From NCBI RefSeq assembly GCF_035083965.1, contig NC_089740.1, positions 12,044,052 to 12,108,051 of the forward strand: 64,000 nt of DNA. The letters are read 5' to 3'. How positions within the stretch are numbered: position 1 is the first letter of the stretch; each line of letters starts with the position of its first letter. The position numbers were made by a program, and so were the translations under genes. Source of the DNA: Branchiostoma lanceolatum. Lineage: Eukaryota > Chordata > Leptocardii > Amphioxiformes > Branchiostomatidae. The notes under the pieces were generated by a model, which searched no databases, had not been told where the DNA came from, and saw only the letters and a list, made by a program, of their open reading frames with translations. Shown here piece by piece: positions 2,889 through 51,900 of this stretch.

Positions 2889-3133
2889 AGAACAAACAAC
2901 TTTATTTTCTTGGTTAACGGATTTTTAATTGTAACACCAAAAAAATCATGAAAACAGAAGGCAGGGGTGAAAACATGCACCTAACCCTGTTCACTCCCTG
3001 ATGCTGTGTGCACCAAAGTAAAAACATTCCTCTGAGATTCTGTTTTCATGTTGTTTTTCCAAACAAGCATTTTTTTTTTAATTTCTTTTATTCCGTTAAC
3101 CAAGAAAATGAATTGGTGTGGCCTAAGAACATA
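2889..3133. mobile_element. Harbinger-like MITE, family A, copy 1
   Basis: About 245 bp with inverted ends built on TTTCTTGGTTAACGGA / TCCGTTAACCAAGAAA. The right end finishes AATTGGTGTGGCC followed by TAA. The outermost left bases are eroded. The interior (AGGGTGAAAAC, CTGTTCACTCCCTG, CCTCTGAGATTCTGTTTTCAT) matches the copies at 11.3, 13.2 and 53.0 kb. Confidence 0.8.
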
Positions 3134-5092: not shown

Positions 5093-5294
5093 CTTGTTAG
5101 TGGTTGGCTCTGCCATAGCACACTTAAAGATTGTACGGCATCAAAATCGTACGACCATCTACGACAAATGTAACCGTGCCGTTAGAGAGGTAGGGACAGT
5201 TTCAAATCTACTGTAGACAATTAAAAAATGTTCTTTTTCATTTGTTTGTCTCCACAGGGAACCTCTTGTTGCAGAGTACGCTTCACGATTCAAA

Positions 5295-9255: not shown

Positions 9256-11309
9256 CTCAGGCCTTCACTAAGGTCATTCCGTCCTAGCTTTAGTTTCCTT
9301 AGAAAGCACGAAGCCACTTTCAATCAGGGAGACGGGGGTTTCAAGATTTTATTTTGGTTCACGCGAGTTGTTTGAGAGGACAACGTTTTTAGTTGGCGGC
9401 CCATCATCGGGGCATGTTTAAGGATCGAACCCAGGACCTCTTGGCTTCTGAGTCAACTACACTGAATCATATAGCATTTACTTCACGACAAGGGATTCAC
9501 TACAAGCATAGCTTTCCGAGTTCATTTGAAAAGGCCAAACATCAAAGGACGTTTTCAATCCAATTTGCCAAGGCATCAGTACCCGATTGATGAACTTTGG
9601 GTCTTAGTTTAGACTGATTGCAAGGAGCTCTTATGGTCGGGATCAGGAAGGAATGACAAAAGACTGGGACTATTTCTTGAACACCAGACGTAACGTATCG
9701 AGGTTTGCGGTTTTGTTGAGGGATCACATAAGGTCCGGCTGCTAAAGACTTACTGTGTATCTAGGTATGTACACTGCAGTACTGGCAAAACAAAGTAAGT
9801 GTCGCTGTGAGACCGTACACAATCCTACTTGTTTTGGGGGAAACTATACGAAACCATAGATTTGACCAGTTCGTTTCCTTCTGTAAAACAAATTCTGAAA
9901 CTCTTTTTGACAAAGAGGATAATTTGTAATTTCTTTTGGGCCTTAAGAAGAATGTGTGGTTATTTTTGACGCAAGAAATGCTACTCGGGTTTTCTTTTAC
10001 CAATGAACCAATTTTCTCTCACCCTCTAAGATTAACGATCAGATCAAATTGCTAAAACTATTTGCGATTAATTTATGGTGTCAGTGCCTTGCAGAATAAA
10101 ATCAGATACACGTGATGCCTAACTCTTACTAGTCTTAAATTTACGTTTCTTTTTAAACAAAATCTAAAGTAGTCATATATATACTTTGCAACGGCCAATG
10201 TTATGTTGGGTTCTTTTCCAACATCAAAATTACTCAATCGACAAGAAATATTGCAGCGTTTGGTACATGCCGGAGTTTGAAAGCCAAACCAAAGAATTTT
10301 CTACACTGCACTCTTTTACAAAATCCGATAGGTGACGCTCAAATTCCATATGATCCCATATGTGTTGCTATTTCACAGCAGTTCATTGAACTTGAAGTAA
10401 GGCCTCATGGACTTGACTATATGCTCTTGGTAACAAGTTGCCAGAAAGATTGAGCAAATGACTGAACACACAGAATATGATTTAGCAAACAATAAGTTCT
10501 ATATTTTAGTTATTTCAAATCTTTTTCCTGGACTTTGGAAGACTGCGCTCTAAACATATTTTGCGGCTAGTTGTACTGATACACGTGGCAAGAAATACTA
10601 TCGGAAAAGGAATTTTACAATTAAATAATATCAGTTTTCCAATATTTGTGGCAACATCTACATCATAGATATGCTTCTCTTGAAGCTTCCTTGAACGATT
10701 TACAGAATGGTCGGAAAGTTTACCTTTCTTAGAAAATTTGATGCGCGAGGGGATGTCATCCATATATTCATGTCAGTTGGGCCCAGAATAATTTGGCATC
10801 CTTTTCTGTGAACAATGGAGAACTTTATTTGTTTTTTTCAGAATTAAGCTTAATTTTCACAAATGTTGTAGAAAGGGATTTACGTGCAGACGCTTCTTGT
10901 TTTGTAAACAAAGGAGGGATTAAAAGGGCCTCTATGAAGAATTTTTTTTCGGAATTAATGTTGTACAAAAAGGCTTAGAGTGCAGGCGTTTCTTTTCCTT
11001 ACGCTTTCCTTTAAAAGATTCGGCAAGCCATTCTAGGTTATCAACAAGCTAAGGCTATTCCAAATGATATTTTTTTACATTGTGACAGACTTATTTATAA
11101 ACTTATAATCGGGGTGGGTACTTATTTACTCGTGTTTCTACCAGAGCTCATCTTAAATGGCCAAACATCATCGGATGTAATCTTATACTTTAATTTTGAA
11201 AAAAAGCCAGAACCCTAGTGGAGAAAATTGGGGTTTCACTGCACTTACTTTGAAAGAAACTTTTTTTCATAGCCAAATTAAAGATGTAGAAACTGGATTG
11301 AAGTGATTA
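9256..11309. other. Intergenic, no gene recognised
   Basis: It contains a weakly tRNA-like stretch (GGATCGAACCCAGGACC at ~9421) and the diverged repeat at 10200-10400. The remaining frames are under 85 codons and low complexity. Confidence 0.4.
10200..10400. repeat. Dispersed repeat, copy 2
   Basis: The partner of 8640-8835, with the same block order ending in CATATGTGTTGCTATTTCACA. Confidence 0.6.
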
Positions 11310-11534
11310 GGCCACACCATCCTAATTTCTTGGTTAATGGATATAAAAAATGCTAGGTTGGAAAATGAACATGAAAACAGAACCTCAGAGGAAAGTTTGT
11401 ACTTTGGTGCACAGTTTCAGGGAGTGAACAGGGTCTGGTGCAAGTTTTAACCCCAGCCTTCTATTTTAATGATGTCCTCATGCTAAAACTTTACAAGAAA
11501 AATCCGTTGACCAAGAAATTAAATTGGTGTGGCG
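11310..11534. mobile_element. Harbinger-like MITE, family A, copy 2 with TTA duplication
   Basis: 225 bp beginning GGCCACACC..CTAATTTCTTGG and ending CCAAGAAATTAAATTGGTGTGGCG. It is flanked on both sides by TTA (11307-11309 and 11535-11537). A 3-bp TWA target duplication with GGCC-starting inverted ends fits PIF/Harbinger. This is the best-preserved copy of the family here. Confidence 0.85.
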
Positions 11535-12849: not shown

Positions 12850-13154
12850 CTCCCCTATTCTGACCTTTGACATAAGGCTAACAAGTGACCACTCAAAGAA
12901 TGACACAGAGACTCTCGTAGGTCAGGGGTTACATTTCTGACCCCTGACCTCTGCTGCTGATGACCCCTGCTGCTGATGATCCCTGCTGCTGATGACCTCT
13001 GCCCTCCATCAAAGCCACCGTGCAGTGGAAGACACCTGTCCTGGAACCCCCCGTCACACCTGTCCTGGAGTCACCTGTCCTAGCTGTTGGCAGTCTTAGG
13101 TTTTCCTTACCATGTTGCACAGGTAACTGGACATAGTACCAAAATTGACCCTTA

Positions 13155-13363
13155 GGCCACACCAACGCAATTTCTTGGTTAACTGATTTTTTTATTTTAG
13201 CACGAGGACATCATTAGAACAGAAGGCCGGGGTGAAAACTTGCACCTGACCCTGTTCACTCCCTGAAACTGTGTGCACCAAAGTAGAGACTTTCCTCTGA
13301 GATTCTGTTTTCATGTTCATTTTCCAATTTTTTAAAATTCCAAGAAATTAAATTGGTGTGGCC
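13155..13363. mobile_element. Harbinger-like MITE, family A, copy 3
   Basis: It begins TTA then GGCCACACCAA..AATTTCTTGGTTAACTGA and ends CAAGAAATTAAATTGGTGTGGCC. It has the same interior as the other copies. The right-hand flank no longer reads TTA. Confidence 0.85.
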
Positions 13364-18275: not shown

Positions 18276-19479
18276 GCTAGGGAGGTAGAGGGAGCCTATC
18301 CCCTGCACTCTGGTAGAGATCCAGCCCTGCACTCTGGTAGAGATCCAGCCCATCACCAACAATAGAGCACACATTACCTAATACTAATAATAACTTTATT
18401 GCCAGTTCATGCCCGAAGGCAAATTGCAGACAAACAAGTACACACTCGAAAAAGTTATCTAGCTAGTCTACTGTGAAAGTTAGTGATACTAACTACTGCA
18501 TGCCCACAGTGCGCCTACACTTACATATACAAATGATCCTCCCTAATGATAATGACATCACATTGCCTACCTGTTTGGGTGAGCTAAAACAGACAGAAAT
18601 GTCAGACCACCCTTCATAGGCTCCCCTAGTACTAGTGCAGCCATACACCCCCCCCCCCTCGTACTGGCAGGTACCAACTTAAGATGTTACAGAACCAATG
18701 ATGATTATAAACCAACTTATTATCACAGTAAGATGATGCAATGTTTAAACTCACAATTTTGAAACTATTAGGATCGTAAAACTATTGGTAAGGAATTCAC
18801 ATATAGCTTATATATCAGCATACACTGAAGTTTGCTGTCCAAGTTGGAACTTTGTTGAAATAACCGTAGGTATCTATAGGTACATGTGAAATCAAATCGA
18901 AGTCCACAACATGGATTTTTATTATGAGACCAGCTGAAATACATGTACATACATTGAATAATTTATTCATAAATTCTTCAGGGCACAATGTCGTAAACTT
19001 TAATGTCCATTCACTTTATTTCACATCTTTATTAATGATTGTTGCATATGACAATTTCGTGGCGAAAATCATCAGAATTCGAATCACTGCGTTGAAAACA
19101 AAAATGACTTCACACAAACTTGCAGTTCATCATAGAGGTTTACAGCAGGCCGTCTGTTGTGCAAGCTAGCTAGTGTTGAGTAAAGTGTATGTTGACTTAT
19201 TTGCCTGCTCTACACAAGGAAGAGCTGAGAAAAAAAAATTGGTATAGACTCATTGTTTGTTCCCCTTGTATTTTTTTTGTTTTCAAAAAAATAATGTTTG
19301 AGGTCTAAATAGGTTTGATTGAAACTAAAACAACCTTCATGGCACAGTTTCCTTCAAATTACCTCATGACTCATACAGATCGTTTTCTCCCTACGAACAT
19401 CTTAAGTTACTACTTTCAATTGTGGTAATAAAACAAGTTAACAAAGAAGAGTATAACAAGAAGCTAGATAGTACAGAAC

Positions 19480-19770
19480 ACAAAATGTCTCTATTACAAT
19501 ACATAGTCTTTTCCACAAACATGCTAATCAACTTACTGAGTAGTAAAACCGTAAGGGGGAAGAAACAGAGAAGATCAGACAAGTAACCAGTGCAGGGATC
19601 CAACCTCCTGGGTTATAACACCAGGAACGAACCAGACTGCAAACGTTGCATCGGCAAATGAGAGAAAAATCATAAGAAAAAGATAGTGTAGTCCTGGAAA
19701 ATACCTACCTCCGTGGAGGGGGCTCTGAAGACTCAAACGCAGATCGTACACCGTATTCGTGTCCACAAAA
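19480..19770 (+). pseudogene. Degenerate copy of a Cys-rich frame (left palindrome arm)
   Basis: This arm can be aligned codon by codon to the open frame in the right arm (IHSLFHKHANQLTE, then GYNTRNEPDCKRC). It has TAG TAA after LTE, frame disruption, and further stops, so it is a decayed copy. Confidence 0.6.
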
Positions 19771-20223
19771 CGTGCTAGCGATCAGAACAATAGAGACAGT
19801 AACTATATCTATTACTGTACATCAACATTGGAACATTTTTGGGGTGTGCTCTCTTTCCATAGTATGTGCAAACTACACCACCATGCCTCGGAGCTTTGCT
19901 CTGACGTTCCCCTCGCCGGCACTATGTATTTAAGCCCCCATTTGGGAATAAGGAGCCCTGGTGTTGTTGCAAGCCAAATGTCGGCTATTCAAAGCCCACA
20001 CCAGCATCATAGTCCTGTAAACAAGGCATATAATTTGGGTGTCCGCTCAGTCCAGACTTCGTCCATGCAGGACTCGGTGGTGTACAATATTCCAATCTGT
20101 TTGCACTTTCGGCCCTTAATAATGGCCCGTTGGGAGGATCATTGTCACAATCCCACACATGGTAATAACCCCTGCGTTTGTGTAAATGCACAGCAATAGA
20201 TATGATCACTCTACTCTACGGTT

Positions 20224-21345: not shown

Positions 21346-21788
21346 CTTCAGGAAGGGATGTTGAAATAATTTACTTCTTCAGCATGAATATGAATATCAT
21401 AAAAGTATGTACATATAACACATTTATCATGATGAAAGAAGCCGACGCCTCGGTGTGCACACAACTTTTTTTTTTGCTATGGTACGATGCATTAGAATGT
21501 GCAACGTTTCTCGTAGCCTCTTAAGTGTAAAATAAAAGTCTGCAAAGACAGTTTGTACATGTATATTCTTTATTATCTGGCAATCGTCACATACATTTCT
21601 AAAATTTCTGAACTGGTCTTTGTTTTGTCAAGACCTACCCACATACCAAATATCAAAAATCACAACTTCTTGAGATATGGGTTGAAACGGTACTGCTGCA
21701 TGAGCGCATTCAGATTATCAAAGAACTATATATAGAAGCTTTAAATCGAATTACATGTCTGCTTTGTACGGAGTTACTGTATATAAGC

Positions 21789-22780
21789 TACGAAGCAGAA
21801 ACAGTGTCAAAAAGATCGTATACGTTTTTTGAAATGGAATAGGTATGTAATTTAGAATGGAATATGTGTTTTTGAAATGGAATAGGTATGTAATTTAGAA
21901 TGGAATATGTGTTCTTCAAATCGAATATACATGTGGTGCTATTATTTTTGAAAGTTGGTATTGTTTTAAAATCTGGTACTATACGATTCCAAAATACCAT
22001 ACGATTTCTGTTTGCTATATCATTTCTGTTTGCTATATCATTTCTATTTGCTATATCATTTCGGTTTGCTATGTCATTTCTGTTTGCTATATCATTTCTG
22101 TTTGTACTCCGGAAATGACGCGTTCCGCTCCGGAAGTAGGGTAGGGCATACATCGGACAAGTTCGTGGTCTCCCACGATGTTGCCGGCCATTTGCTCCGG
22201 GTAAGTTGTGTTCGTCTTTGGCGAAATACGCCGATATTTACGCACGCCACGTGTTGTCAGTGTCGCTGTGGACACTTGGACTTAATATCGGCCAGTTACG
22301 GTTGGTAGTGACCGTCATTTTGTCGACAATCGCCAACATTGACTCGGGAACTTTACGTCTGACAGTGTGGGGGAGGGGGGCGTGTTTTCGTGTACCAATA
22401 TATAACGTTAGATTTCCACCGGCGAATCTTTACGAAAAGAGGAGATTAAATATGGAAATTATGGGTAGAAAGTCAACACAAGTTCTGCTGCTTCTTCGGA
22501 CAATTTTTAATTAGGCTTGATTACCCTCAACTTTGGGGTTGGTAAGCTTGCCGCAAACCGGGCGTTTTGTGTATTTACGACAGAAGGGTAAAAGGGCGAG
22601 TCCAGAATGGATGTGTCAAATTAGGGCGTCAAATTAAGGTCGCACAACACAGTACGCAGACTTTGTGTGGATAAAATAGTGCTAAAAATCATTGTAAAAT
22701 TCTTCTAAATTCTAGAATAAATACCAGTGATTGGCAACTTGGGCTACATGTTATGCTATTATCATGCCCTATTCTTATAC
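21789..22780 (+). repeat. Left terminal inverted repeat of the composite element
   Basis: The outer part is nearly identical to the right repeat: a 102-codon chance frame (22206-22514) differs by one residue from its counterpart (34315-34623, minus). The inner ~150 bp is much more diverged and has small indels. It contains a 42-bp duplication (21835-21925), an 18-bp minisatellite, GTGGACACTTGGACT..ATATCGGCCAGT and GGGGGGCGTGTTTTC.. AGATTTCCACCGG. Confidence 0.9.
22003..22107 (+). repeat. 18-bp minisatellite CATTTCTGTTTGCTATAT
   Basis: About six copies here but only about three in the mirror position (34723-34771). Array length has therefore changed since the two terminal repeats were last identical. 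Confidence 0.85.
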
Positions 22781-22904
22781 CTACCAATTTTAGACTAGCT
22801 CCTTAGTCTAGTTGCCATACATTGTACCTGTTATGATTGTCAAGCAATAAAATGTTATGTTCTGTGTATAATAATAAGTTGCATTTCATGTATTTTCTTC
22901 TCAG

Positions 22905-23027
22905 AGTTCCCAGAAAAGATGTTGTGTCTGCACTGTGGGGCGTGCGGCACACAGGACGCTGAACTTTACCATTGACTTTCTAGAAGAGCAGGGCACAGTC
23001 GACTTGCCTGAGTCCAGCACACGTTGA
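22905..23027 (+). CDS. Possible terminal exon of an unidentified gene
   Basis: The acceptor TTTTCTTCTCAG ends at 22904 and is followed by 40 codons to TGA at 23025-23027. The frame includes QKRCCVCTVGRAAHRTLNF and TIDFLEEQGTVDLPESSTR. It lies just inside the left terminal repeat and has a downstream AATAAA at 23867-23872. I do not recognise the protein and see no upstream exon inside the element. It could be a captured 3' exon or a chance frame behind a good acceptor. Confidence 0.35.
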   Translation, partial: SSQKRCCVCTVGRAAHRTLNFTIDFLEEQGTVDLPESSTR

Positions 23028-24534
23028 GAATACCAACAGGGCTGCCATACGGGGAGTTCTGTAGAAGGCTTGTCAGCCATTATTTTCTAATCCTAAAACA
23101 TTGGTCACTTGAAAACTGAACAGATTTGAAGGTGATGTTGGAAAACTTGGAAACCTGCTTTTTGGCACAAGACTTAAGTAATTTGAGAGACCATGTTTAT
23201 CTCAACATAACAGATCCTTTTATTTAGTCATAGTAGTGTATATTGTTATATAGATATTCACCTTTCAAAACTGCACCGACCATGGTCTATTTACAGTTTT
23301 GGGGGGAGTCTGTACAGGCAGACCAAGTTGTATGGGTACTGTCCATGCCTAGTGTAACAGAGGACTTTGTGTGGTTTGTGGTGCCTCCATCTAGACTGAA
23401 TGAGCCTCGTCACGCTGTTAGAATCACATCAAGAGAGTTCACACCCAGCTTGGCAGTACAATTAGTGTTTGTGTGACAGCTTTTTACAAACCAGTGAATG
23501 ACATTCAAGTCAGCATGAAGGTCATGTCAAATTTTGACTGTGGTGATGAGGAATACTGAAGTTTATGTTGAGAAAATGGTGTACATGTATATGCAGTATT
23601 AAATAGAATATGTGTCTGAACTTGAGAGATTAGAATAGGTCATCTTTTTTCTAAAGGAAAAGTCCATTTCAACAAAAGTTTAGTGGGAGCACTGAAAGAC
23701 ATCATGATTCAGTCTGAAACTGTGGCAATGTAGTTTTTTATTGTAAGAATAATATCACTAGACCATGGTCGACATTCACCTCATATAGAAAGGGGGATTT
23801 CTGTCCATTCTATATATATACATTATTCTATATTCATGTATATGTATATGCATACACTTATATCAAAATAAACATTGTAATGTAGAACTTTCCGTGTCAA
23901 TTTTCTACTTGTGCCTGACATGTTTTTCTTAGTATACTGCAGTCAACATTGCAACACTATGTAGCTGTCAATAGTTCTACTCATGTAGCATACACCGCAG
24001 TCAACGCTACAACACTTTGTAGCTTTTAATACTTAACCAGTCATTCCGACACACCTTCCACACAGGTGTAAGGCCCCACCCCACATGGCCACTGCTGGCT
24101 GGTTGGGCCCATCGCCATGTAAGCATATATAAGCAAGGACATGATTGTCGAGCCGGACTTGGTCAACAAGTTAGTTACATGTAATATAGTCTAGGGCTAG
24201 GATTTGGACATTTAGCGGCGCTCTCTAATTACACTTATATACTGAATATACTATATGAATAGAGAAAAGGCCACACAGGTTTCAATATGATTGTGTTTGT
24301 ATTTTAATGAGATAATTACTTCACAAATATACAACAACAGGACTGGCTTACAGGTACTTCGGTTACATAAAGGTCGGTAGCCCATTACGTTCCCATGTAA
24401 GGGACAGGAAGGTAAACAACCCCAAACCGTTGTTGAAGTATTGTACTGGCCGGTCAAGAACCCCTCTCTGATCTGATTGTACAATTCAGTAAACACCCTC
24501 GTTTCGATGTTCAAGCACCATTGTATAAGATCAG
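23028..24534. other. Element interior without recognised gene
   Basis: AT-rich, with AATAAA at 23867. The minus frame 24251-24538 (TDLIQWCLNIETRVFTEL) directly follows the end of the 28S homology and may be residual coding sequence, but no family is recognised. Confidence 0.4.
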
Positions 24535-25195
24535 TCACGTCGCCAGTTCCATGCGCGGGTCGACCCGGCCAACGGGCCTCGTTCAGTCACGGAAACTCCC
24601 ATCTCGCTTCTTGTCCGTCCCAGTGCGATCGTGACAGCACTTATTAGAGCCAATTCTTCTCCTGAAGTTACGGATCCGGCTACCCGACTTCCCTTACCTA
24701 CGTTGGTCTATCGACGAGATGCTGTACACCTTGGAGACCTACTACGTTATGGTACGGACAGACGTGAAAATTGCACGTCTCTCTCTTTAATGAAGAGAGA
24801 GTCACGTCTCTCTCTTCAATGGCCCACCTGAGCGTACCGGCACCATAAAAGCCGCGGTGCTTTACGGGGCAGCTTTCCTTATCTCCGGGCAAACCGATTC
24901 CTGGACACGTGCGCCTTACAAAGAAAAGAGCACTCTTTCCGGGGCTCATACCCACGTCAACGACTTCGCTTGCGTTGCTGCGCCGGGCGAACATTTCCCC
25001 GTTCGCGGGAATGTTAACCCGATTCCCTTTCGGTATGCCGGGGCGGCTCGTGACGCACAGAATCCCGCGGCCGCACCCGCCACCGTGCGCCCGACGAACC
25101 TCGGAAGGACCCGAACACCCAACCTCGTTACTGCTTGGAGCAAGCAGAGCGAGCCGGGGCGACGCGCAGTGACCACGAAACCGGGCCCGCACTTC
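24535..25195 (-). rRNA. 28S rRNA pseudogene, downstream segment
   Basis: Reading the minus strand gives 28S landmarks: CCCCGGAAAGAGTGCTCTTT TCTTTGTAAGG, CAGGTCTCCAAGGTG-like TAGGTCTCCAAGGTG, GTAGGTAAGGGAAGTCGG, AGCCGGATCCGTAACTTCAG and AATTGGCTCTAATAAG. Many conserved positions are changed (often C to T or G to A). Homology fades near 24535 with no 28S 3' end. It resumes upstream at 27618 after the inserted palindromic element. Confidence 0.85.
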
Positions 25196-27617
25196 CGGAA
25201 TAGACCCCTTTCCAAATACCGCGGCCATTTTGAATCCAGGGCGCGCGCACGTGATTCGAGCGCGGGAAAAGTCAACACCCGGTAAGACCAAGCCAGCGGT
25301 AAGGCGCTCCCAGTAGAAACCAGCGTTGAGTCATCTTCGGCGGCGAGATGTTCTCCTTCTCGGTGAAATCCATCGATATATTTGCATGGCACAAGTAGAT
25401 GATATTGTTGTGGACACTTGGACTAGATATCGGCCAGTAAAATTGTGAATTTCTGCTACTTTTCCACAGTTTCTGCCGGGATGTTGAACGCGCGCTACAG
25501 TGATAAAATGCTGATATGTTTACACCGCGTGCTTGTAATTTCCCTAATAATGTTAGCTAAAGTCGAGAAAAATCCCACAAAACATACACTTTTCGGATCA
25601 TTTTAGCTTCGTTTAGGTATGAATATAACTCTTGAGCCTTTTGGCTGTCGTGACAATGCCAACATCATCTTGAAATTACGTTAGTTTGAGGGAGGGTTTT
25701 GTTTTCTGTGCAGCGTTACATCGACTTCGCTCAGCAATATTTGACATTTCCGTTGAATGCAATCCCACAAAAAAAACAAGACGTGAAAATATAGACTTGA
25801 GTTCAATGTCCTTTTGGGTACAAATTTGGCAGCATTCCGGCGGCTTTTTGACGATCTTTTCGGATGCCAAGAATTTAGGCTTGAGGACTCCAAGTACGCG
25901 AGTGAAGTTGTGTTTTCCATTCTATCTGACGTTTCTTTAAATCATTTTGCGCGGCAATATTTCAGATATCTGTTGGCCGGATGGAACCCAAAAAACGTTA
26001 AATAATATTGACTTGAGGACTGAAGGACCTCCGGCCGATATTTTTCCTTTTGTTGTGGGGTTTCATCCTGTGGAAATCTAAGATATTTCCGCAAAAAGTG
26101 ATGTAATAAAACGCTCCAAAGAAAACACGCCCCCTGCTTCACTCACAAGTCGAGAAAAACCCCGTAAAGCATACACTTTTCGGGCTGGGATCCTTATAGC
26201 TACTTAGATAGAAATATACAGAATTTTACCGGTTGTGACTTCCCCTGGGAAAACGCGCGTTGAGAGGGGGTCGTGTTTCTGTCTAGCCTTTCTTTCTTTT
26301 CTGTCTAGCTTTTCCTTTCTCTCTTGTTACATCGCTCCGCAAGCGATATTTGACATTTCCGCTGAATGCAATCCCACAAAAAAAGACCTGAAAATGTAGG
26401 CTTGAGCTAAAGGTAATTTTTTGGGGGAATTTAGCAGAATTTCGGCGGCTTCTTTTGACGAGTTTTCTGAAATATCAAAACCTAAAGTACGTGAGTGAAG
26501 ATGGAGTGTTTTCACTTTGCGCCGTAATATCTTAATTTCCGTCGGATGATATTACAGAAGCGTGAAAATATAGGCTTGAGGGCTTTGCGAGTATAAAAAT
26601 TTGACGGAACTTCGGTGGCTCCTTTGACTTTGACGATATTTCAGTGCCAAGATTAGCTTGATGAAGTTCGTGAGTGAAGCAGGGGGCGTGTTTTCTTTGT
26701 AGCGTTTCATTACATTACTTTTTGCGGAAATATTTTAGATTTCCACAGGATGAAACCCCACAACAAAAGGAAAAATATCGGCCTGAGGTCCTTCAGTCCT
26801 CAAGTCAATATTATTTAACGTTTTTTGGGTTCCATCCGGCCAACAGATATCTGAAATATTGCCGCGCAAAATGATTTAAAGAAACGTCAGATAGAATGGA
26901 AAACACACCTTCACTCACGTACTTAGAGTCCTCAAGCCTAAATACTTGGCATCCGAAAAGATCGTCAAAAAGCCGCCGGAATGCTGCCATATTTAAGGAC
27001 ATTGAACTCAAGCCTAGGCCTATATTTTCACGTTTTTTTGTGTGTGGGATTGCATTCAGCGGAAATGTCAAATATTGCTGAGCGAAGTCGATGTAACGCT
27101 GCACAGAAAACACGACCCTCCCTCAAACTAACGTAATTTCAAGATTATGTTGGCATTGTCACAACAGCCAAAAGGCTCAAGAGTTATATTCATACCTAAA
27201 CGAAGCTAAAATGATCCGAAAAGTGTATGTTTTGTGGGATTTTTCTCGACTTTAGCTAACATTATTAGGGAAATTACAAGCACGCGGTGTAAACATATCA
27301 GCATTTTATCACTGTAGCGCGCGTTCAACATCCCGGCAGAAACTGTGGAAAAGTAGCAGAAATTCACAATTTTACTGGCCGATATCTAGTCCAAGTGTCC
27401 ACAACAATATCATCTACTTGTGCCATGCAAATATATCGATGGATTTCACCGAGGAGGAGAACATCTCGCCGCCGAAGATGACTCAACGCTGGTTTCTATT
27501 GGGAACGCCTTACCGCTGGCTTGGTCTTACCGGGTGTTGACTTTTCCCGCGCTCGAATCACGTGCGCGCGCCCTGGATTCAAAATGGCCGCGGTATTTGG
27601 AAAGGGGTCTATTCCGA
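25196..27617. mobile_element. 2.4-kb palindromic element inserted in the 28S
   Basis: The ends are GGAATAGACCCCTTTCCAAA and its exact inverse. The arms are about 950 bp (25196-26148 and 26672-27617) around a 520-bp loop. Removing it rejoins the 28S with no base gained (..GGCCACTC + GGAAGTGCGGG..), so no clear target duplication is visible. Arms and loop are built from 200-230-bp modules (GAATGCAATCCCACAAAAA, TAGGCTTGAG, TTTCGGCGGCT.., GTGAGTGAAG, GCGTGTTTTCTTTGTAGCG). Motifs GTGGACACTTGGACT..ATATCGGCCAGT and GGGGGCGTGTTTTC.. AGATTTCCAC are shared with the outer terminal repeats. No protein-coding gene was recognised. Confidence 0.85.
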
Positions 27618-29007
27618 GTGGCCTTCGCTTATCACTCATGACCAGCTGACCCATGTCCAACTACTGTTCTCACGTGGAACCCTTCTCCGCTAGTCTTTGA
27701 ATTTCTCGTTTGAATATTTGCTACTACCACTATTACTAAGACCAGCAGCCGCGGCGGCTCCACCCGGACTCGCGCCCGAGGCTTCTGCGCTCACCGCGGC
27801 GGCCCTCCTACTCGTCGCGGCCTGGCTCAGCCGGAGCGGACTGCCGCGACGGCCGGGTATGGGCTTGACGCTCCAGCGCCATCCATTATCAGGGCTAGTT
27901 GATTCGGCAGCTGAGTTGTTACACACTCCTTAGCGGATTAAGCTTGGCCACCGTCCTGCTGTCTGTATCAACCGACACCTTTTCTGGGGTCTGATGAGCC
28001 TCCGCATCGGGCGCCTTAACCCGGCGTTCGGTTCATCCCGCGGCCCGCAGCGCCAGTTCTGCCTACCACACGTGGCCCACTGAGCACTCGCATTCCAAGC
28101 CCGGCTCCACTCGAGCGAGTCGGACACCTTACCAATTGAAAGTTTGAGAATAGGTTGAGGTCGTTTCAGCCTCAAGACCTCTAATCATTCGCTTTACCAG
28201 ATAAAACTGCGACAGAGTGTCAGCTATCTGAGGGGAACTTCGGAGGGAACCAGCTACCTAATGGTCCGATTAGTCTTTCGCCCCTATACCCAAGTTTGAC
28301 GATCGATTTGCACATCAGAATCGCTACGGACCTCGACCAGGGTTTCCCCTGGCTTCGCACTGCTCGGGCATAGTTCACCATCTTTCGGCCGGTACCAACG
28401 CGCACGCTCTAGCGCGACCTCACCGACGGAGCGGTCGAGATCGGCCGGTGGTGCGCCCGCGCCGCGGAGACGGCGGGGATACCACCTCGGACATACGGAC
28501 GGCCCTTCACCTTCATTGCGCCTCTGGGTTTCGTACAACACCCTTGAGTCGCGCACGCGTTAGACTCCTTGGTCCGTGTTTCAAGACGGGTCCTGGTCGG
28601 GTGGACGATCGGACCTCGCCGCAGACCCCGGGCGCCCTGCGTGGCGCACCCGTCGACCGCACGACGGGGACCCGGCCCCTGCCCGCCATGGGGGCAATGG
28701 GCAAACGCGGCGGTGGATTGCCTGTCCTCGGTCCGACAGCGGGCGGCGCACGCACCGCGACTATAACTCCGGAGACCCGAGGGCCCCGGGCACCTTCCGC
28801 GGGGACGTGGCCGCCGTCGAACCGGTCGCGGAAAAACTGAAGCGGGTCCGCACGCCTCGACGCCGGCCGATCGGTCTTGCGATCCATGCTCGGCCGGTGG
28901 GGCGCGGACGGACGCCGCCTGAATCCTCCGGGCGAACCTTGCGGCCCCACCAGTTTACCTCGGTTAGCTAGCGGTTTCACGTCCTCTTGAACTCTTTCTT
29001 CAAAGTT

Positions 29008-29041
<34 letters not shown>

Positions 29042-29307
29042 CCGGTCTCGTGTCCGTATTTAGCCTTAGGCGGAGTTTACCTCCCGCTTTGGGCTGCATC
29101 CCCAAACAACCCAACTCCGAGGAGGGGCAGACCGAACGCCACCGTCGCCGCCATATGGGGCTGACAGCCGCTCTGGGAGAGGCCTCGATCACAAGGACAT
29201 GGGCAACTGTCGACGGACGGAGAGCACCTCCCGAACGCCACAGTTCCCGCGCCCCGTGGGAGCGGAGATTCGGCGCTGGGCTTTTCCTGCTTCACTCGCC
29301 GTTACTG

Positions 29308-29354
<47 letters not shown>

Positions 29355-29385
29355 TATGTGGGTCGTCTCGCCTGAGCTGAGGTCG
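27618..29385 (-). rRNA. 28S rRNA pseudogene, 5' segment
   Basis: Minus-strand landmarks in order: the 28S start with CATATTAAGCATATTACTAA GCGGAGGAAAAG, AACGGCGAGTGAAGC, GGGTTGTTTGGGGATGCAGC, CGAACAAGTACCGTGAGGGA AAGTTGAAAAG, GGTAGCTGGTTCCCTCCGAA, GCGAATGATTAGAGGTCTTG, GATGAACCGAACGCCGGGTT AAGGCGCC, CGCTAAGGAGTGTGTAACAA CTCA, GACGAGTAGGAGGGCC, and AGTAGCAAATATTCAAACGA GAA. Decay is evident: universal GACCCGCTGAATTTAAGC reads GACCCACATATTAAGC, and GGGGCCGAAACGATCT reads GAGGCTGAAACGACCT. Proteins predicted in this span on either strand are shadows of rRNA. Confidence 0.92.
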
Positions 29386-29795
29386 AGGAGTGGAGTGAGC
29401 AAACGCGCAAAGCGCTGCTCTTTGGCGACCGTCCATTCGTTGCGGACGGGCACGCCGCCTGCCGACGCCCTTCGCAGTCTAGCTCGCCGGGGAGAGAGTA
29501 TCAGCTCGATTGTTAGGGCTGCAATTCGGACGGCCGGCGGGGACGCGCCAAGCCGGGTCGGGGTCGCGAGGAGGAACTCCCCACGGTCCACCCGAGCGAG
29601 GCGCCGCGAGCGCGAGAAGCAAATCGGGTTTGGACGCGAGCGTCTCCGCCGGAGGGAACTGTGAAAATCTGTCCTTCGGGGGACGAAGCTTCTACCGATC
29701 GCCGTGGAAAGCCGCCAGCTTCGACAAAGACACCCAGCCGCGCGCCAGGACCGCAGTCTCTCCATGCGCCCGAGAGCGAGAGAGATGGAGCGGCG
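29386..29795 (-). other. ITS2-like spacer
   Basis: GC-rich sequence between the 5.8S fragment and the 28S start, in the position of ITS2. It has no coding resemblance. Confidence 0.6.
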
Positions 29796-29897
29796 CGAAG
29801 AGTCGATGATCAATGTGTCCTGCAATTCACATTACTTCTCGCAGCTGGCTGCGTTCTTCATCGACACACGAGCCGAGTGATCCACCGCTAGGAGTTG
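29796..29897 (-). rRNA. 5.8S rRNA, 5' two-thirds (truncated)
   Basis: The minus strand reads CTCCTAGCGGTGGATCACTC GGCTCG, GATGAAGAACGCAGCCAGCT, TAATGTGAATTGCAGGACAC and ATTGATCATCGACTCTTCG, as in animal 5.8S. It then breaks off before the expected AACGCA..TTGCGGCC portion and passes directly into ITS2-like sequence, losing about 55-60 nt of the 3' end. Confidence 0.9.
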
Positions 29898-30682
29898 TCG
29901 TTTTATTTTCGTTTGATTTCGCATCGAAAGTTTGTCTTTGCCTCTCGGCATCGTCGTTTCAGAGAAGGGAAGAAGCCGCCCTTCGGAGTGAAGGACGGTG
30001 AACGAGCGGAAGGGCCGGGGGTCGCTTCGCGAACTGGGACCCGCCGTGAAGACCGCTGTGCCCCCTCGACAAAACGCGACCGACCGGCCCGAGCTGGGAA
30101 AGAGAGCCGAGGGGTTGATTGCGCTCGCCCTTCTCTTGAAGACCTCGGGGAGTGGAGCAGTCGGTCGAGACCGCCGGTGGCGACCGAGAACAAGTCCTAC
30201 CCTCTGCCCAAAGGAGGCCTTGGACCGCAGGATGCCCGCTCGAAGTCCGACGCTTAAGGACAGGTCACTCGTCCGCAAGACGGATTGTATCGAGTCAGAA
30301 ACCGAAACGCCGCGCCGGGGTGCCGGGGAGGAGTCGTCTCACCTAGGCGCCGCCGTGAGACTAGCAACTCAACCCCATTCCGCGCAAACCAACAACGCGA
30401 CGCCCCTCCGCCAGGATATAGGTTCCCCCACTTGCGCACGCCCGCTTAAAACTTTTCGCCGGGAGGACCTGACTCCGTCCTCGACCAGGCTACTCGGGGC
30501 GGCTCGCTGGTTTAGCAGGGTATAAGGAACGACGGGCTCACACTGAAGGTACCCGACCAACGTTTCAAGGAAGCTGCCAGGTCCCGCCGCCAACTGGGTT
30601 GGCATGGGTGCTCCTGACACTCCGCCCGCGCTCCTCCGCGAAGGAGGAGCGATTGACGGCAGAGAGCGCCACCTTAAGAGAG
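29898..30682 (-). other. Spacer between the two 5.8S pieces (ITS-like)
   Basis: The part next to 29897 should be ITS1, and the part next to 30683 should be ITS2 of a second unit. No 18S 3' end (GGAAGGATCATTA) is present, so the boundary is undefined. Long frames on both strands reflect GC-rich composition. Confidence 0.5.
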
Positions 30683-30742
30683 CGGGACTGACCCGGGGCC
30701 GCAGACTGCGTTTGAAGAATCGATGATCAATATGTCCTGCAA
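30683..30742 (-). rRNA. 5.8S rRNA, 3' fragment of a second copy
   Basis: The minus strand reads TTGCAGGACATATTGATCAT CGATTCTTCAAACGCAGTCT GCGGCCCCGGGTCAGTCCC. This overlaps the first fragment by about 30 nt and supplies the part missing there. Three C-to-T-type differences mark it as a separate, decayed copy. The true 3' end is missing. Confidence 0.8.
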
Positions 30743-31600
30743 CATCGGGGGAGGGTGCCGGAGCGTACGCGCCCGCAGTTGGGTCGGTCCTCGGACAAGA
30801 TCGGACAGGCTTGCTCGGCTAGTTTCGCCGCCGTCGAGGCGGTACGCGGACGGGGGGCGTGGGGCTGGTGGTGGTTCACGGACCGTCGGCGGGCGGGCCG
30901 GGGTGGTGCCAGGGTCCTCCAAATGCAGACCCCGGTAGAGTCCTTTCCGGGTCGGTGGAGTCGGGGCCGGCGTACGGCCTGTCGACGGGGAGCGGTGGTC
31001 GGTGCCGGTGAGCGCACCTTCACCCCCTTCCCGAAGGTCGCTCACCCTACCTTGAAAGAGAGTGGTCGTTTTTCGTCTAGCGCGGGAAATGACGGCGGAC
31101 ACCGGGTCTCCGGTCAGCACACTCCCTCCCAGTCGTTTTGCTACCCCGCCGATCAGGCTGCCGCTCCCCGCGAGGTCGACCGTGCCGCGGGCGTCCGGAC
31201 GAACCAGCGCTGGGGCAGGGTCTTCCGCGGAGGCGATGCCCAGGTCTTCGGACCCGCCAGTGAACGGACTCACCCCTTCCGTCTGCGTGCGAGGTCGCCT
31301 TTCGGACTCGGTGGTCGGACTCAACCGGCGGAGGCGTCGCCCGAGAGAGTGGGGGCTCGTCCTTCGCGGGACGGCTAGGGCGTTAACGGGAAGCAACGGT
31401 CGGTGTGGCCGGGAGTGCTGCAGCTCAGGCTCCCGAGGCTTCGCGGCCTCGCGGCGCGTTCCCGCTGTTCGGGGGCGTGCGGACTACTGCACGGACCGCG
31501 GATCGCTCTCTGGTGGATCCCCATTACGGCCGACTGCCCCCGTCACCGTTCTCTCGCCGAGACGGGTTTTGACGGGCAGCGCCCGCGCCTCTGCCGGGGA
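30743..31600 (-). other. GC-rich rDNA spacer-like sequence
   Basis: It continues the high-GC island upstream (in transcript sense) of the second 5.8S fragment. No 18S motif was found. The island ends near 31600, where composition returns to background. Confidence 0.5.
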
Positions 31601-31610
31601 TCGTGTAGAC

Positions 31611-31949
31611 TGGTGCAATACAAAAACACAGAGGAGGGAGGAGAGGCAGACCACCTTCGCTGAATTTCATGGACCCCTTTCCAAAACGGGGCTTACCGAG
31701 AGGCTATTCTGTCTGGCTGCCCAATGGACGCTCATTGTGCTTTCGACGGCAACTCATCAGGTGGCGCAAGGGCCTGAGGGGAGGAGGCGTACGCGTTCTT
31801 ATCCAGGTGCGATGGCATGCGACGATGCCGATGGACTTTATTACAAGGACGTTGACCTTGACGAACAACAGTGGTCCTCCTGTGTGTTTGAGCGCCCGTC
31901 CAAAAAGTGGCAGCGGCAACTATTCTGGTGCCTGCTGAAGACAATTTGA
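31611..31949 (+). other. Unidentified open stretch at the edge of the rDNA island
   Basis: The + frame ending at 31949 is open across here and reads ACDDADGLYYKDVDLDEQQW then SSCVFERPSKKWQRQLFW. An alternative + frame (31669-31938) is also open. No family was recognised; it may be a captured coding fragment. Confidence 0.25.
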
Positions 31950-32584
31950 ATATTGTCACACAGGTCTGCATGCTCTTGGTGAGGGGCATTGGCTGTCAGA
32001 TAGAGTATAGAACTAACTTAAAGTCGTGTAGAAGTTGTACTGGCTCCTTAGATTGCTAAGTCAAAGTAGGCACTACAAGCAACAGCACATATTGCAAGTT
32101 GCAACTCTGTAAATAAGATCAGGCATTGTGGAGCAAACTCTGAAAGGGCCTAATTTGAAATAGATAGCTTTGATTTCAAACTGCAGGCCAACATCCTGAA
32201 TTTCTAATGTTTATAGCACTAGACAGGCTCCCTGTGGATTTCTACATGTTTATATGCCCTATTCACACTGCAAAGTACAGAACGAGGCCATTGGGTGTTA
32301 ATGGATATTGTTCTTACCAGGGCAAGGAACCAGTCTCTTTAAAACCAGTGGTAGTGAAGCAGTTTTGTATGATATGAACTGTTGAAAATTGTACATACAA
32401 TAAGGAACATTAAGTGAGTCATGATGTTTTTTTTATTAATAGAAAGTAACATTTGCAATCTCCATATAGCCCTTACAATAATAGTTAAATCTGAACTTCT
32501 TTTGACTAATAGGTGACAGCATGAAGGCCCATGTAATAAATGACCATATTGTTCATCAAAACTACAAAAAACTACAAAAAATTC

Positions 32585-33960
32585 ATTCACAACTGCTGAA
32601 CTAAATGTCTGTATAGCAACGAAAACTTGACTACCAGTGACAGAGCAAATAAAAAAAAATCTAAGAAAACTAGTAATTCTCAAATTGATCAATCCAAATA
32701 AATTTATTGGTTCTCTGGTTGCTGTATGAAACAAATGGAGTGTAAGATCAGCATGAAAAATACAACACTTTTAATAGACCCCGTGATAGTCCCATAACAT
32801 TATGTAGGAATAAGCTTACTGCTAAATGCTGGGGAAAAAACAAACCTTTGAGATGTTTGAGATAAGAGTTTCCGGATGAAAGAATTTAGAATAAAATTTT
32901 CAAAGGCAGGGCTTTTCAGGTGTTGAAAAGAGAATTTTGTGGTTGATCTGTACCTGACTGCATGGTCGGCACCGTCAAGCAACAATCCAATACAGATGCT
33001 GAACAGTTCATTCAATGTTTTAATAGTAAACATGGCAAACACAATGAAGAGTGCCAGTCCAAGAACCAAGCAATTACACTGGTACAAAAAAAGCTTCTTT
33101 ACATTCAAGGGAGTTAACTTGGCAGAAAATATCTCTTATGCCTTGCTCAGTCAGTTTTATCTCTGAAACTTAACTCATTTAACAAGGCACTTTTCCTATC
33201 AAAAGGTCATGACAGATAAGGATAAATTCTACGACAAGGATAAAGGTTTCAAGCAATATTAAGTAAAAAATCATGCACATGTAGAAAATGTTTACCTGTC
33301 AACGTACAGAAAATCCATTACATGTACAAAGGAACATAGCTGCAACATGCCCAAGGTTACTTAGTAAGATGAGAAATTGACGAGAGAACGTTCTCTGCCA
33401 TGCTGCAACAAGCAGCCATAACATGTCATCATGGACTTACAGTAAGTGGCCGTGATGATAACCCAGGGGGCATAGGGATGTCAGATGTAGCTTCAAAGCC
33501 ATTATGTTCCAATATGCTTAAAGGAAGTATTGAAATTCATGCGTGCAATTGATCAATCTTCCATACCATCACACCTTCCATTTGACTCCTATAATACAAT
33601 ATGATATTATATTTACTCTAGGAAAGGCAAGGTTGTGGAAATTACAAATACAAGAGTTGCTAGTTCTCCCAAGCATCAGTTTGCAATGTTCAAATATATG
33701 TCTCTGCAACATGTCAAATTGACATTACCACTACATGTATTTCTGTCCAATTCACACCTCCCACATCTGAACGTCTAGCTTAGATTCCTGGATAGTTCTA
33801 AACATTGAACTCAACAGCGATTCTGATATTTCTCCCTGTGAGCTGCAAGACAAGAGAGATAGCAGCATCCCTCCAACTTCATAAGCATCAGTTTCCTGCT
33901 GAGATCTCAAGGCTCACAGTGCAGATAATTCCATATCCTGTACATGTTGGCTTAAATCCC
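32585..33960 (-). CDS. Putative exons of an unidentified gene inside the composite element
   Basis: Three minus-strand exon candidates have good acceptors and donors and agree in phase: 33918-33960 (acceptor ttgcag, donor gtgagc), 33758-33842 (acceptor cttgcag, donor gtgtga) and 32954-33078 (acceptor gtaccag, donor gtacag). Joined in frame they begin DLSQHVQDMELSALSQGEIS, run through LLSSMFRTIQESK, and end in a helical hydrophobic stretch with LGLALFIVFAMFTIKTLNEL. A fourth candidate begins at 32630 (SQVFVAIQTFSSAVV); its end is uncertain, near 32585. The helical pattern resembles ARM/HEAT-type proteins, but this is only an impression. There is no start or stop, so this would be a gene fragment. 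Confidence 0.35.
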
Positions 33961-34069
33961 CTGCAAGTCAGAAAGAAAGAGGTTGAGAAGCATGAAACCT
34001 CATTTTCATCACCAGTCAGTTTAAATGAATAGGATAGTAAAATTGTAGGATAATAAAGAACAACGGCAT

Positions 34070-34985
34070 AGGTAGGTATGATAATATCCCAAGTTGCCAA
34101 TAACTGGTGTTTATTCTAGAATTTCTACGAATTTTCAATGATTTCAGCACTACTTTATCCACACAAAGCCTGCGTACTGTGTTGTGCGACCTTAATTTGA
34201 CGCCCTAATTTGACACATCCATTCTGGACTCGCCCTTTTACCCTTCTGTCGTAAATACACAAAACGCCCGGTTTGCGGCAAGCTTACCAACCCCAAAGTT
34301 GAGGGTAATCAAGCCTAATTAAAAATTGTCCGAAGAAGCAGCAGAACTTGTGTTGACTTTCTACCCATAATTTCCATATTTAATCTCCTCTTTTCGTAAA
34401 GATTCGCCGGTGGAAATCTAACGTTATATATTGGTACACGAAAACACGCCCCCCTCCCCCACACTGTCAGACGTAAAGTTCCCGAGTCAATGTTGGCGAT
34501 TGTCGACAAAATGACGGTCACTACCAACCGTAACTGGCCGATATTAAGTCCAAGTGTCCACAGCGACACTGACAACACGTGGCGTGCGTTAATATCGGCG
34601 TATTTCGCCAAAGACGAACACAACTTACCCGGAGCAAATGGCCGGCAACATCGTGGGAGACCACGAACTTGTCCGATGTATGCCCTACCCTACTTCCGGA
34701 GCGGACGCGTCATTTCCGGAGTACAAACAGAAATGATATAGCAAACAGAAATGATATAGCAAACAGAAATCGTATGGTATTTTGGAATCGTATAGTACCA
34801 GATTTTAAAACAATACCAACTTTCAAAAATAATAGCACCACTTGTATATTCGATTTGAAAAACACATATTCCATTCTAAATTACATACCTATTCGATTTG
34901 AAAAACACATATTCCATTCTAAATTACATACCTATTCCATTTCAAAAAACGTATACGATCTTTTTGACACTGTTTCTGCTTCGTA
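34070..34985 (-). repeat. Right terminal inverted repeat of the composite element
   Basis: Inverse of 21789-22780. It differs mainly by fewer 18-bp minisatellite copies, one boundary indel block and a diverged inner end (TTGGCAACTTGGG..TATTATCAT). It is followed by ATAAGC at 34986-34991, matching the left flank. Confidence 0.9.
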
Positions 34986-35089
34986 ATAAGCTCGCACGTC
35001 CACGTGTACATTACATAGCTTCACACGATGTCGCATGCGCAGGGGCCGAGGGAATGTTGTTCTCGGTGCATTGCATGTTGGCATTTGGG

Positions 35090-35240
35090 CAAGCGGGAGT
35101 GGGGTGTGGAGCAAGCGGGAGGGGGGGGGGGGGGCAAGCGGGAGTGGGGTGTGGAGCAAGCGGGAGTGGGGTGTGGAGCAAGCGGGAGTGGGGTGTGGAG
35201 CAAGCGGGAGTGGGGTGTGGAGCAAGCGGGAGTAGGGTGG
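35090..35240 (+). repeat. 22-bp minisatellite CAAGCGGGAGTGGGGTGTGGAG
   Basis: Six to seven copies. One is interrupted by a G run of about 14 at 35119-35134. Chance frames on both strands produce repetitive peptides. Confidence 0.9.
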
Positions 35241-35327
35241 GGAAAATATGGGGTGATAATAGTAAGTAGGGGAAAGATTGTGATGGATAAAAATTAAAGG
35301 AAATTTAACTGACCTGATTTTAAATAA

Positions 35328-48951: not shown

Positions 48952-51900
48952 TTACAAAATGGTACACTGTGCATGTGCCTGGTCCTTTGTGGCCTTCATC
49001 TTCAAACTGCGCAGTTTTTCATTGGTTCCGTCCAGTAGTAGCCCCAGCTGACAGACTGCAATGGTGTCTTCTGTCTTCCCTTTCTTATACTGGTGCTCAG
49101 CATATCTGAAAGCACAGATGCAACAATACAATAATTAATCTGCTTTTTTAAGTTCATAAGGAACATACAAGAAAGTGGGAGGGCATCTTGTAGTGGGGAG
49201 GGGGGCAATTTGTAAAAATGTTCATGCACCTTTTTTTGCCCTCCCTTTCACATTGTGATGAACTCAATTAAACAAAGTTAATAATACTCAACCAATTTTT
49301 CTGAAGAAATGAGTTAAGGATATCCACTCTTTTCAAGGAATATTGATACAATGTAGCATTAATGTCATTGACAAAAGCCAAAAAAGCCTATCATACATAA
49401 CTGTTTCCTTGATTGTACTAGAAAAGTTTTAAAAAAGAATTAAGATAGCTTGATCACTTGCACCTTATCATATTTATCCATGTCAATGTCTTATACATCT
49501 GAAGACTCTACATCTACCTACCTGTGAAACACCTGAGCAAGGGTGTTCTTCCCTGGACGTGATGTCACCAAACTGACGGTTTTCTGTCGGTCTGTTTTGA
49601 ATGCGTGCACATAATCCACCACGGCGGGATGTTCCTTGTTGCGAAGGAGGTTGATGTAGCCCCGCCAGCAGTAGTCACTGACCTGTTGGAATCGTGATGA
49701 CAGCCACATAATTAGACATGTTAAGCCTTAACCTATGTTTACATAGTTTTGTAGTAAACTGGGAACAGAATGTGTCCAATAGTTCATACACAATAAGCGC
49801 TTGGGCTGAAGTTTGCTTGATTTTGAGACTTTTTTATCATGTAGCGTTACAGATATTTGACCACATGTACTCGAATTGTAACATTTCATATTAAGTACTC
49901 CCTGATTTACCTTGGCTCATTTGAATACATGTATCACCTAACAAAACAAGTCATTCACTATAACTTTTATACAGTTTGGAAATCACAACAAGTTAAACTC
50001 CATGTACGTTTCTATGATTTAGAAATCAAAACTATTACATGAAAAAGTAGGTGAAAATCGATTGTAACAGAGATAAGTCTTACCTGAGATGTACTCTTGT
50101 TTGCATTGTTCTTCTTTATGACCAGATTGATATCGTGCAGGGCCTGGTCGTACTGTTGTAGCCTGCTCAGACACTTTGTACGCTGGCGGAGAACGTCCAC
50201 GTCTGAGCTCTGTGAGGCGGCCACTGCAAGGGTCAGGTAGCACAGAGCCTCCTCGTGGTCATTCAGTCCAGTCAGGACTTCAGCCTTCTTCAGGGACACC
50301 TGTTCAAATGACAGTTATGTGTTGATTTCATTTGAACTAAACCTTCACTAACCACAGATTTTCTTTTTCTGTCCACCTCAAGTCAGCATCAAATAATCTT
50401 GTTTAGAACCTTGAGACTTTGTGACTACACTTGTAGAATCAATTACAATAGTGTTCAGCACCAAGGACAGGCATGTTCACCTAAATGTGGATTGTGTTCA
50501 GCACCAAGGACAGGCATGTTCACCCATGTGTGGATTGTGTTCAGCACCAAGGACAGACATGTTTACCTGTGTGTGGATAGTGTTCAACACCAAGGACAGA
50601 CATGTTCATCTGTGTGTGGATAGTGTTCAGCACCAAGGACATACATGTTCACCTGTGTGTGGATAGTGTTCAGCACCAAGGACAGGCATGTTCACCAGTG
50701 TGTGGATAGTGTTTAGCACCAAGGACAGGCATGTTTACCTATGTGTGGATCGTGTTCAGCACCAAGGACAGGCATGTTTCCCAGTGTGTGGATAATGTTC
50801 AGCACCAAGGACAGGCATGTTTACCTATGTGTGGATAGTGTTCAGCTTCTTGAAGTTTAAGGATGATTTCACACCTTGACCAAGGAGTCCCTTTGCTCAC
50901 TGTCTAGAGCCTTCAGGACGAACTCCAGGCCTTCAGAGTCCAGCTCCGCCAGAGGACTGAGTTCTGTTGCGGCCAGCTGGTAGTTGCCCTTCTTCACATA
51001 GATCAGTCCTCTGCGCGCCAGGACTGACCGGTCATCAGGTGTCAACTGTAGCACACGATTCAGGTGCACAAAGGCCTGGTCCAAGTCCCCTGGAGAAAAA
51101 TAAAAGGTAAATGCTTAGTATACATTTTTACAGTAGAATTTACAAATTGATGGTGACCACCTCTACATAGGGACCACGTATCATGGCCAATTTTTGGTGG
51201 TCCCTTAAATCATTTCTCCCATTGACCATGCACTCATAGTCCTCATGGCTATCTGTATACAGTGGCAAGTCCACTAAGGTTTGACCGTGATTTGAATAGA
51301 AATTGTTTTTAAAAAGAAAGGTGGTCACAGAAAACCATATAAAGTTACTGTACACAAAAATGAAGGTCACAGAAAAGCAAGACGACCACAATATGATGTT
51401 GGAGACATTGACATTGATAAACTTACCTTTAATGATAAGAGAATCTGCATACAACAGTTGCCATGCTGCAACATCAGCATCAATGGATATGAGTAAGTGT
51501 CCGATCAACACTGCGTCGTCCAGACACCTGTTATATGGTCCCTGGGACATCACGTCCGTAGCGTACAGATGTAACCAGTACAGCAGTAACAGCCGCATTT
51601 GTTGCTGTAGGAGTAGGATTTGTGTCCTTGCTGCTTCCGAGTCTTTACGCAATGCTGACAGGAAATCTTCCACCGCTTCCTGCAAGGTATTCAACATATT
51701 CGTAAGTTCAAAGTGGAAAATTTGGAGGTACATTTTCGGAAGTATAGAATAAAAAGACAAACAACTAAGTCATTTATTCAACCAACGTTCCAGTGACCAT
51801 CTGTCACCTTCCTCAAGGCAATTCTGACTGGTTCACATTTGCACTGCAGCTTACAGATCATTCCCAGATGCAAAGTATTCATACATTTGGGACCACATCT

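Follow-up and report, generated by a model that had tools for sequence, protein, structure and literature searches.

A 13.2-kb block in the genome of the lancelet Branchiostoma lanceolatum is probably a non-autonomous DNA transposon of foldback anatomy, with long terminal inverted repeats (TIRs) and IS3EU-like ends, which captured ribosomal DNA (rDNA) as cargo of the Pack-TIR type. The block occupies positions 21789-34985 of a 64,000-nucleotide stretch of contig NC_089740.1 (assembly GCF_035083965.1, positions 12,044,052 to 12,108,051 of the forward strand), hereafter the window, to which all coordinates refer. All results on the block describe one copy at one locus within this 64-kb window. 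Its ends consist of the following features.

21783-21788, plus strand: left copy of the target site duplication, ATAAGC, in direct orientation
21789-22746, plus strand: left TIR, 958 bp, first bases TACGAAGC, observed/expected CpG ratio (CpG o/e) 1.26
34085-34985, minus strand: right TIR, 901 bp, last bases GCTTCGTA, CpG o/e 1.31
34986-34991, plus strand: right copy of the target site duplication, ATAAGC, in direct orientation
21826-21927 in the left arm and 34847-34948 in the right arm: 43-bp tandem repeat, 2.4 copies in each
22004-22104 in the left arm (5.6 copies) and 34724-34770 in the right arm (2.6 copies): 18-bp tandem repeat

The preliminary description of this DNA had reported near-identical terminal repeats in opposite orientation and a direct ATAAGC at both outer boundaries, and both were confirmed. 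The alignment of the two arms contained 887 identical columns of 958, with 57 gap columns and 14 mismatches. Five of the mismatches fell in left-arm positions 1-871 and nine from position 872 inwards; identity thus fades toward the inner edge of the arms, which fits conversion between them, and arm identity is therefore not a clock. Given the base composition of the flanks, two random 6-mers would agree with a probability of 3.6e-4. Further, the window was scanned for exact 10-bp inverted repeats bordered by exact 6-bp direct flanks. In 33 of the 35 pairs returned, the 6-mer was self-complementary; one of the others was a T run and the last was the non-palindromic ATAAGC pair. That each outer arm is a small element of its own was also considered and rejected, as the arms carry no inverted termini of their own (by reading, unscored). 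Insertion of the outer ends at this site as a transposon, with duplication of 6 bp, is thus supported. The earlier claim had extended this to a single insertion of the whole block. The duplication, however, gives a date for the ends alone, and movement of the whole 13.2 kb as one piece is not proven, since later gap filling yields the same duplication.

The outer element runs from TA to TA (TACGAAGC...GCTTCGTA), as does a second, inner palindromic element described below, which in place of an exact 6-bp duplication has an imperfect one only. Complete IS3EU families always have TA..TA termini and usually 6-bp duplications, and GingerRoot elements have 6-bp duplications and termini that are mostly TA..TA (PMC10045372; this and the other papers are cited here from their matching passages). 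Because TA..TA with a 6-bp duplication is the published mark of IS3EU/GingerRoot, the end type is not an undescribed one. By their sequence the outer ends appear IS3EU-like; membership of that superfamily is unproven. None of the matching passages stated that IS3EU is present in lancelets. It is unlikely that the ends belong instead to another superfamily with variable duplications, either Mutator or a hAT group with 6-bp duplications. Most foldbacks seem to be Mutator elements (PMC4079207) and hAT6 has 6-bp duplications (PMC12730594); however, TA..TA termini together with exactly 6 bp fit IS3EU/GingerRoot (PMC10045372), and Tetris, a foldback assigned to Mutator, has duplications of 8-10 bp (PMC4079207).

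No Pfam match exceeded a cut-off, and a DDD/E transposase of the IS3EU clade was not found. Non-autonomous copies may lack the transposase. The protein searches covered the element outside the rDNA and the GC-rich spacer, together with the ends of these that fall within 31500-34150. Nothing near a Pfam cut-off, and no transposase, came from the ten open reading frames (ORFs) of the outer element, from 22700-24580, 31500-34150 and the left arm translated in all six frames, or from the inner element translated in its three forward ones. The weak Pfam rows were DUF1218 (0.065), RDD1 (0.2), Gp22 (0.049), a Spin-doc zinc finger (0.12) and TgpA_N (0.022). A protein-coding interior was rejected on these results, and the possible exons suggested earlier have no Pfam match at the curated cut-off. 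A search of the genome_contigs set with the outer terminal 20-mer returned no exact match.

The anatomy is that of a foldback. As in FB, Galileo and Tetris, the arms are very long and contain internal tandem repeats (here 958 and 901 bp, with 43-bp and 18-bp units), and the middle of such elements is variable and apparently non-coding (PMC4079207); in this one copy, no coding domain was found in the middle segments. The 18-bp repeat differs in copy number between the arms, as in foldbacks (PMC4079207). Unlike them, the element has a 6-bp duplication (8-10 bp in Tetris), TA ends and rDNA in its middle (PMC4079207). Compared with IS3EU/GingerRoot, it shares the TA..TA ends and the 6-bp duplication (PMC10045372) and differs in the absence of a recognised transposase, in its 901-958-bp arms and in its rDNA cargo; in the matching passages on fungal families, TIRs are described only as longer than 30 bp (PMC12730594). 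The foldback shape may have more than one lineage of origin (PMC4079207). The view that the end type is undescribed was not supported, as ends of the IS3EU/GingerRoot type (PMC10045372) and foldback anatomy (PMC4079207) have both been published.

Between the arms lies ribosomal sequence, on the minus strand, interrupted by the inner palindromic element.

29901-31660, minus strand: GC-rich (0.65), CpG-rich spacer-like DNA, presumed internal transcribed spacer 1 or rearranged spacer, with no Rfam match
29728-29896, minus strand: 5.8S rRNA match, similarity clear only to about 29800
27612-29362, minus strand: 5' part of 28S, large-subunit (LSU) model positions 24 to about 1572, the last positions weakly aligned
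25201-27611: inner palindromic element, TAGACCCC...GGGGTCTA, 2,411 bp, arms of about 947 bp, spacer of 523 bp, TA..TA
24646-25200, minus strand: continuation of 28S, clear between about 25045 (LSU model ~1595) and about 24646 (model ~1954)

The Rfam match to 28S covers 29362-27735 as two adjacent pieces (model 24-1455), and a focused search of 27560-27960 extended it to model position ~1572 at window position 27612, weakly at its end. The 28S noticed in the preliminary description is present; it runs longer than the first Rfam match and reappears past the inner element: a search of 24200-25200 recovered the continuation with 117.7 bits (E 2.7e-29), within which 25046-25200 is GC-rich and aligns to the LSU model as an insert only. 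A 29-bp repeat of the 5.8S (93%) was found at 30714-30742, within the 1.76-kb GC-rich spacer-like DNA. This second 5.8S piece lies upstream of the first, so the order is rearranged and wrong for a simple rDNA unit. No 18S was found in the Rfam search of the window, and no 28S past model position ~1954 was confidently identified. In this state the unit cannot yield a whole 28S; it is mainly truncation and interruption that prevent it from working. Further, the rRNA matches in the window at the Rfam gathering score were confined to the inside of the outer element, and the locus is thus not an rDNA array.

The 28S/5.8S sequence between the arms is non-transposon sequence flanked by TIRs and a target duplication, as in Pack-TIR and Pack-MULE elements (PMC8277862). 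We also considered that unrelated rDNA, or the interior of another copy, was placed between the arms during assembly. Misassembly typically occurs at such points as rDNA and arms of 900 bp that are nearly identical, but an exact target duplication is not created by assembly error, and the rDNA here is truncated, interrupted and rearranged, unlike a unit of a standard array. Such an artefact is very improbable.

The proposed decay of the ribosomal sequence was supported only in part. Over 18 blocks of strongly conserved Rfam columns, the 28S had substitutions at 64 of 751 positions (8.5%) and deletions at 11 of 762. In four working prokaryotic 23S genes, aligned to their own models, 3.3-6.3% of positions were substituted (L057, 14/287; L041, 7/214; L026, 16/253; L054, 10/228), the controls being prokaryotic and on other Rfam models and only part of the printed alignment blocks having been entered on both sides. 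Deletions had seemed to separate the 28S from working genes in hand-chosen blocks that included the 5.8S and two of the four controls. A wider recount upheld this incompletely, with no deletion in 754 positions over L057, L041 and L026 but 10 in 238 in L054. For a eukaryotic 28S control, a 28-base probe matched 62 prokaryotic contigs; on comparison of all 62, the best 40 rows were short matches without a eukaryotic 28S among them; the same probe had no match in the viral_contigs set. Thus, decay of the 28S is likely, and its signs are modest.

The second palindromic element noted earlier in the cargo was recovered at 25201-27611, where 25196-26146 aligned with 27616-26670 at 96%. Because 28S was found on either side of it (model ~1572 and ~1595), it is nested between consecutive parts of one 28S. 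Its flanks read TTCCGG (then AA) and TTCCGA, an imperfect 6-bp duplication with two extra bases on one side, which might, as a weak reading, derive from a 6-bp duplication of 28S target sequence that was later damaged. Given this imperfection and the weak 28S alignment beside it, the limits of the inner element were taken from its own inverted repeat. One subterminal stretch connects it with the outer element.

22204-22296, plus strand: subterminal stretch common to the outer and inner elements, 93 bp, 66 identical

The outer and inner arms were 70-71% identical over this stretch (direct comparison, E 7e-12 and 5e-11; search of the whole window, E 7e-7), and beyond it they showed no clear likeness. 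A coding origin was rejected, as the 27 differences are spread 10, 9 and 8 over the frame positions; since they ignore the reading frame, we take the stretch as a candidate cis-acting site, perhaps bound by a transposase. A 29-bp pattern derived from it had four occurrences across the window, one in each arm, and none in 100 shuffles. The pattern was built from two of the arms, so that its match to all four follows by construction and the shuffles exclude composition only; we therefore gave weight to the 93-bp alignment and not to the pattern. The motif shared by the outer and inner elements had no exact match in viral_contigs. Of the proposed lineage of palindrome-forming elements, the likeness in this one 93-bp stretch stands, and the whole claim hangs on it.

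The inner arms also bear on how the middle was acquired. The duplication may stem from insertion of a small IS3EU-like foldback, whose host-like and ribosomal middle was then added in place by gap filling, in which case the full 13.2 kb would never have moved as a unit. Most single-copy animal Pack-TIRs have been attributed to such transposition-independent filling (PMC8277862), and the duplication constrains only the ends. On the other hand, the middle is very large and mosaic, and the arms of the element inside the rDNA have diverged further, with 28 mismatches over 943 columns as against 14 over 901 for the outer pair, although a template that already bore the inner element would explain this difference as well. 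Overall, we regard later filling as possible though doubtful.

The remainder of the middle consists of two segments of a different composition.

22747-24520 (right edge approximate): left middle segment, AT-rich, CpG o/e 0.38, TG/CA excess, no protein family
31661-34084 (left edge approximate): right middle segment, AT-rich, CpG o/e 0.37, TG/CA excess, no protein family

Outside the element, 111 of 471 overlapping 1.8-kb windows had a CpG o/e of 0.38 or less, and both segments are thus ordinary for this DNA; they resemble regional sequence that is probably methylated. In contrast, the arms (1.26 and 1.31), the rDNA blocks (1.10-1.27) and the inner element (1.14) stand out. Values of at least 1.1 outside the element occurred in none of the 471 windows of 1.8 kb, in 7 of 489 windows of 900 bp (maximum 1.18) and in 19 of 497 windows of 500 bp (maximum 1.46), so that high values are not unique at the small scale. 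The sharp mosaic (0.37-0.38 vs 1.1-1.3) can serve as a map of the modules. For the rDNA block as a separate insertion, a comparison of 24050-24620 with 31500-32000 gave no match of at least 10 bp, direct or inverted; a duplication of 4-9 bp would be unrecognisable there because the edge zones share 53 six-mers anyway.

Macrotransposon-type transposition is known from maize. By analogy, an rDNA pseudogene locus already in place could have been bracketed by two separate, inverted ends of the outer family, which together moved the whole segment between them. The middle does resemble a slice of a host locus, with CpG-poor DNA flanking the rDNA block, but the arms share their inner limit and have near-identical outer parts, as expected of one element, and this account seems quite unlikely.

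We therefore return to the non-autonomous foldback with captured rDNA. A transposase supplied in trans would act on its TA..TA ends, perhaps using subterminal sites such as the 93-bp stretch common to both elements, and a 6-bp stagger at insertion would produce the ATAAGC duplication. The middle would be captured DNA, namely host-like, CpG-poor sequence around a truncated 5.8S-28S fragment, which in turn harbours the second, partly similar palindromic element. The rDNA would be passive cargo, acquired by template switching during repair or as the segment between two inverted ends. What we infer from this arrangement is that a transposase acts in trans and that the cargo moved with the ends, together with the route of capture and the sequence of events. 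The cargo could have come to lie here by three routes: insertion of an already loaded copy, filling after insertion, or movement of the segment between two inverted ends. A single insertion of the whole block would require the first or the third.

Several points weigh against this interpretation. It is drawn from one copy only. With no transposase found, the superfamily is read from the ends, and these are TACGA..TCGTA, which differ in the fifth terminal base from the TAYGG..CCRTA ends of fungal IS3EU families, whose TIRs exceed 30 bp (PMC12730594). About 11.3 kb lies between the arms, as against a median of 224 bp in animal Pack-TIRs, and the cargo, unlike theirs, is rDNA (PMC8277862). TIR arms can be homogenised by conversion, and the insertion cannot be dated from their identity. 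Finally, the duplication of the inner element is imperfect and the adjoining 28S alignment is weak on both sides.

Some other transposons resemble the block in part. Pokey and Dada, DNA transposons of rRNA and small-RNA genes, are likewise associated with multicopy RNA genes, and Dada has 6-7-bp duplications (PMC3706591). However, Pokey and Dada insert into RNA genes (Pokey also elsewhere), whereas the outer element encloses rDNA and only the inner one sits in 28S; Dada has no TIRs and the outer element has long ones. As for insertion into a small RNA gene, no match at the Rfam gathering score was found beside the outer ends. KolobokP, which is composite-like and present in Branchiostoma, also has long terminal repeats around an internal region, but its long repeats are direct rather than inverted and Kolobok duplications are TTAA (PMC9587614).

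Foldbacks, IS3EU ends and Pack-TIRs have thus each been described already; their combination here is unusual, and no report of rDNA inside an IS3EU or foldback element occurred among the matches listed from the open-licence literature. A cut-and-paste element with an rDNA middle would be a direct vehicle for exporting rRNA pseudogenes from the arrays. Provided that the ends and the cargo travelled together, the element would be a Pack-TIR far above the animal median size (PMC8277862) and, judging from this one locus, a foldback form of IS3EU. A broader and rather unlikely extension is a lancelet lineage of IS3EU-like foldbacks tied to rDNA, in which some members insert into 28S as the inner element did, and larger ones carry rDNA pieces from the arrays into euchromatin, leaving dispersed pseudogenes as cargo.

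The neighbourhood bears genes: one ORF, of the leucine-rich-repeat type, lies at 5217-7454 and another, of the TPR type, at 54164-56062. To the left of the block lies a second long palindrome (arms 19198-19822 and 20815-20186, 84%, first bases TATTTG), with no evident duplication in its immediate flanks. A 22-bp tandem array of seven copies (35089-35243) adjoins the element on the right. Further, members of a family of dispersed repeats, each about 220 bp long, occur in both orientations at 2893-3126, 11307-11533, 13152-13363 and 53009-53246, the copies being 76-86% alike. Two tandem Rfam matches to precursors of mir-2060, a lancelet-specific microRNA family, were detected at 50604-50783, within a repeat array at 50448-50846.

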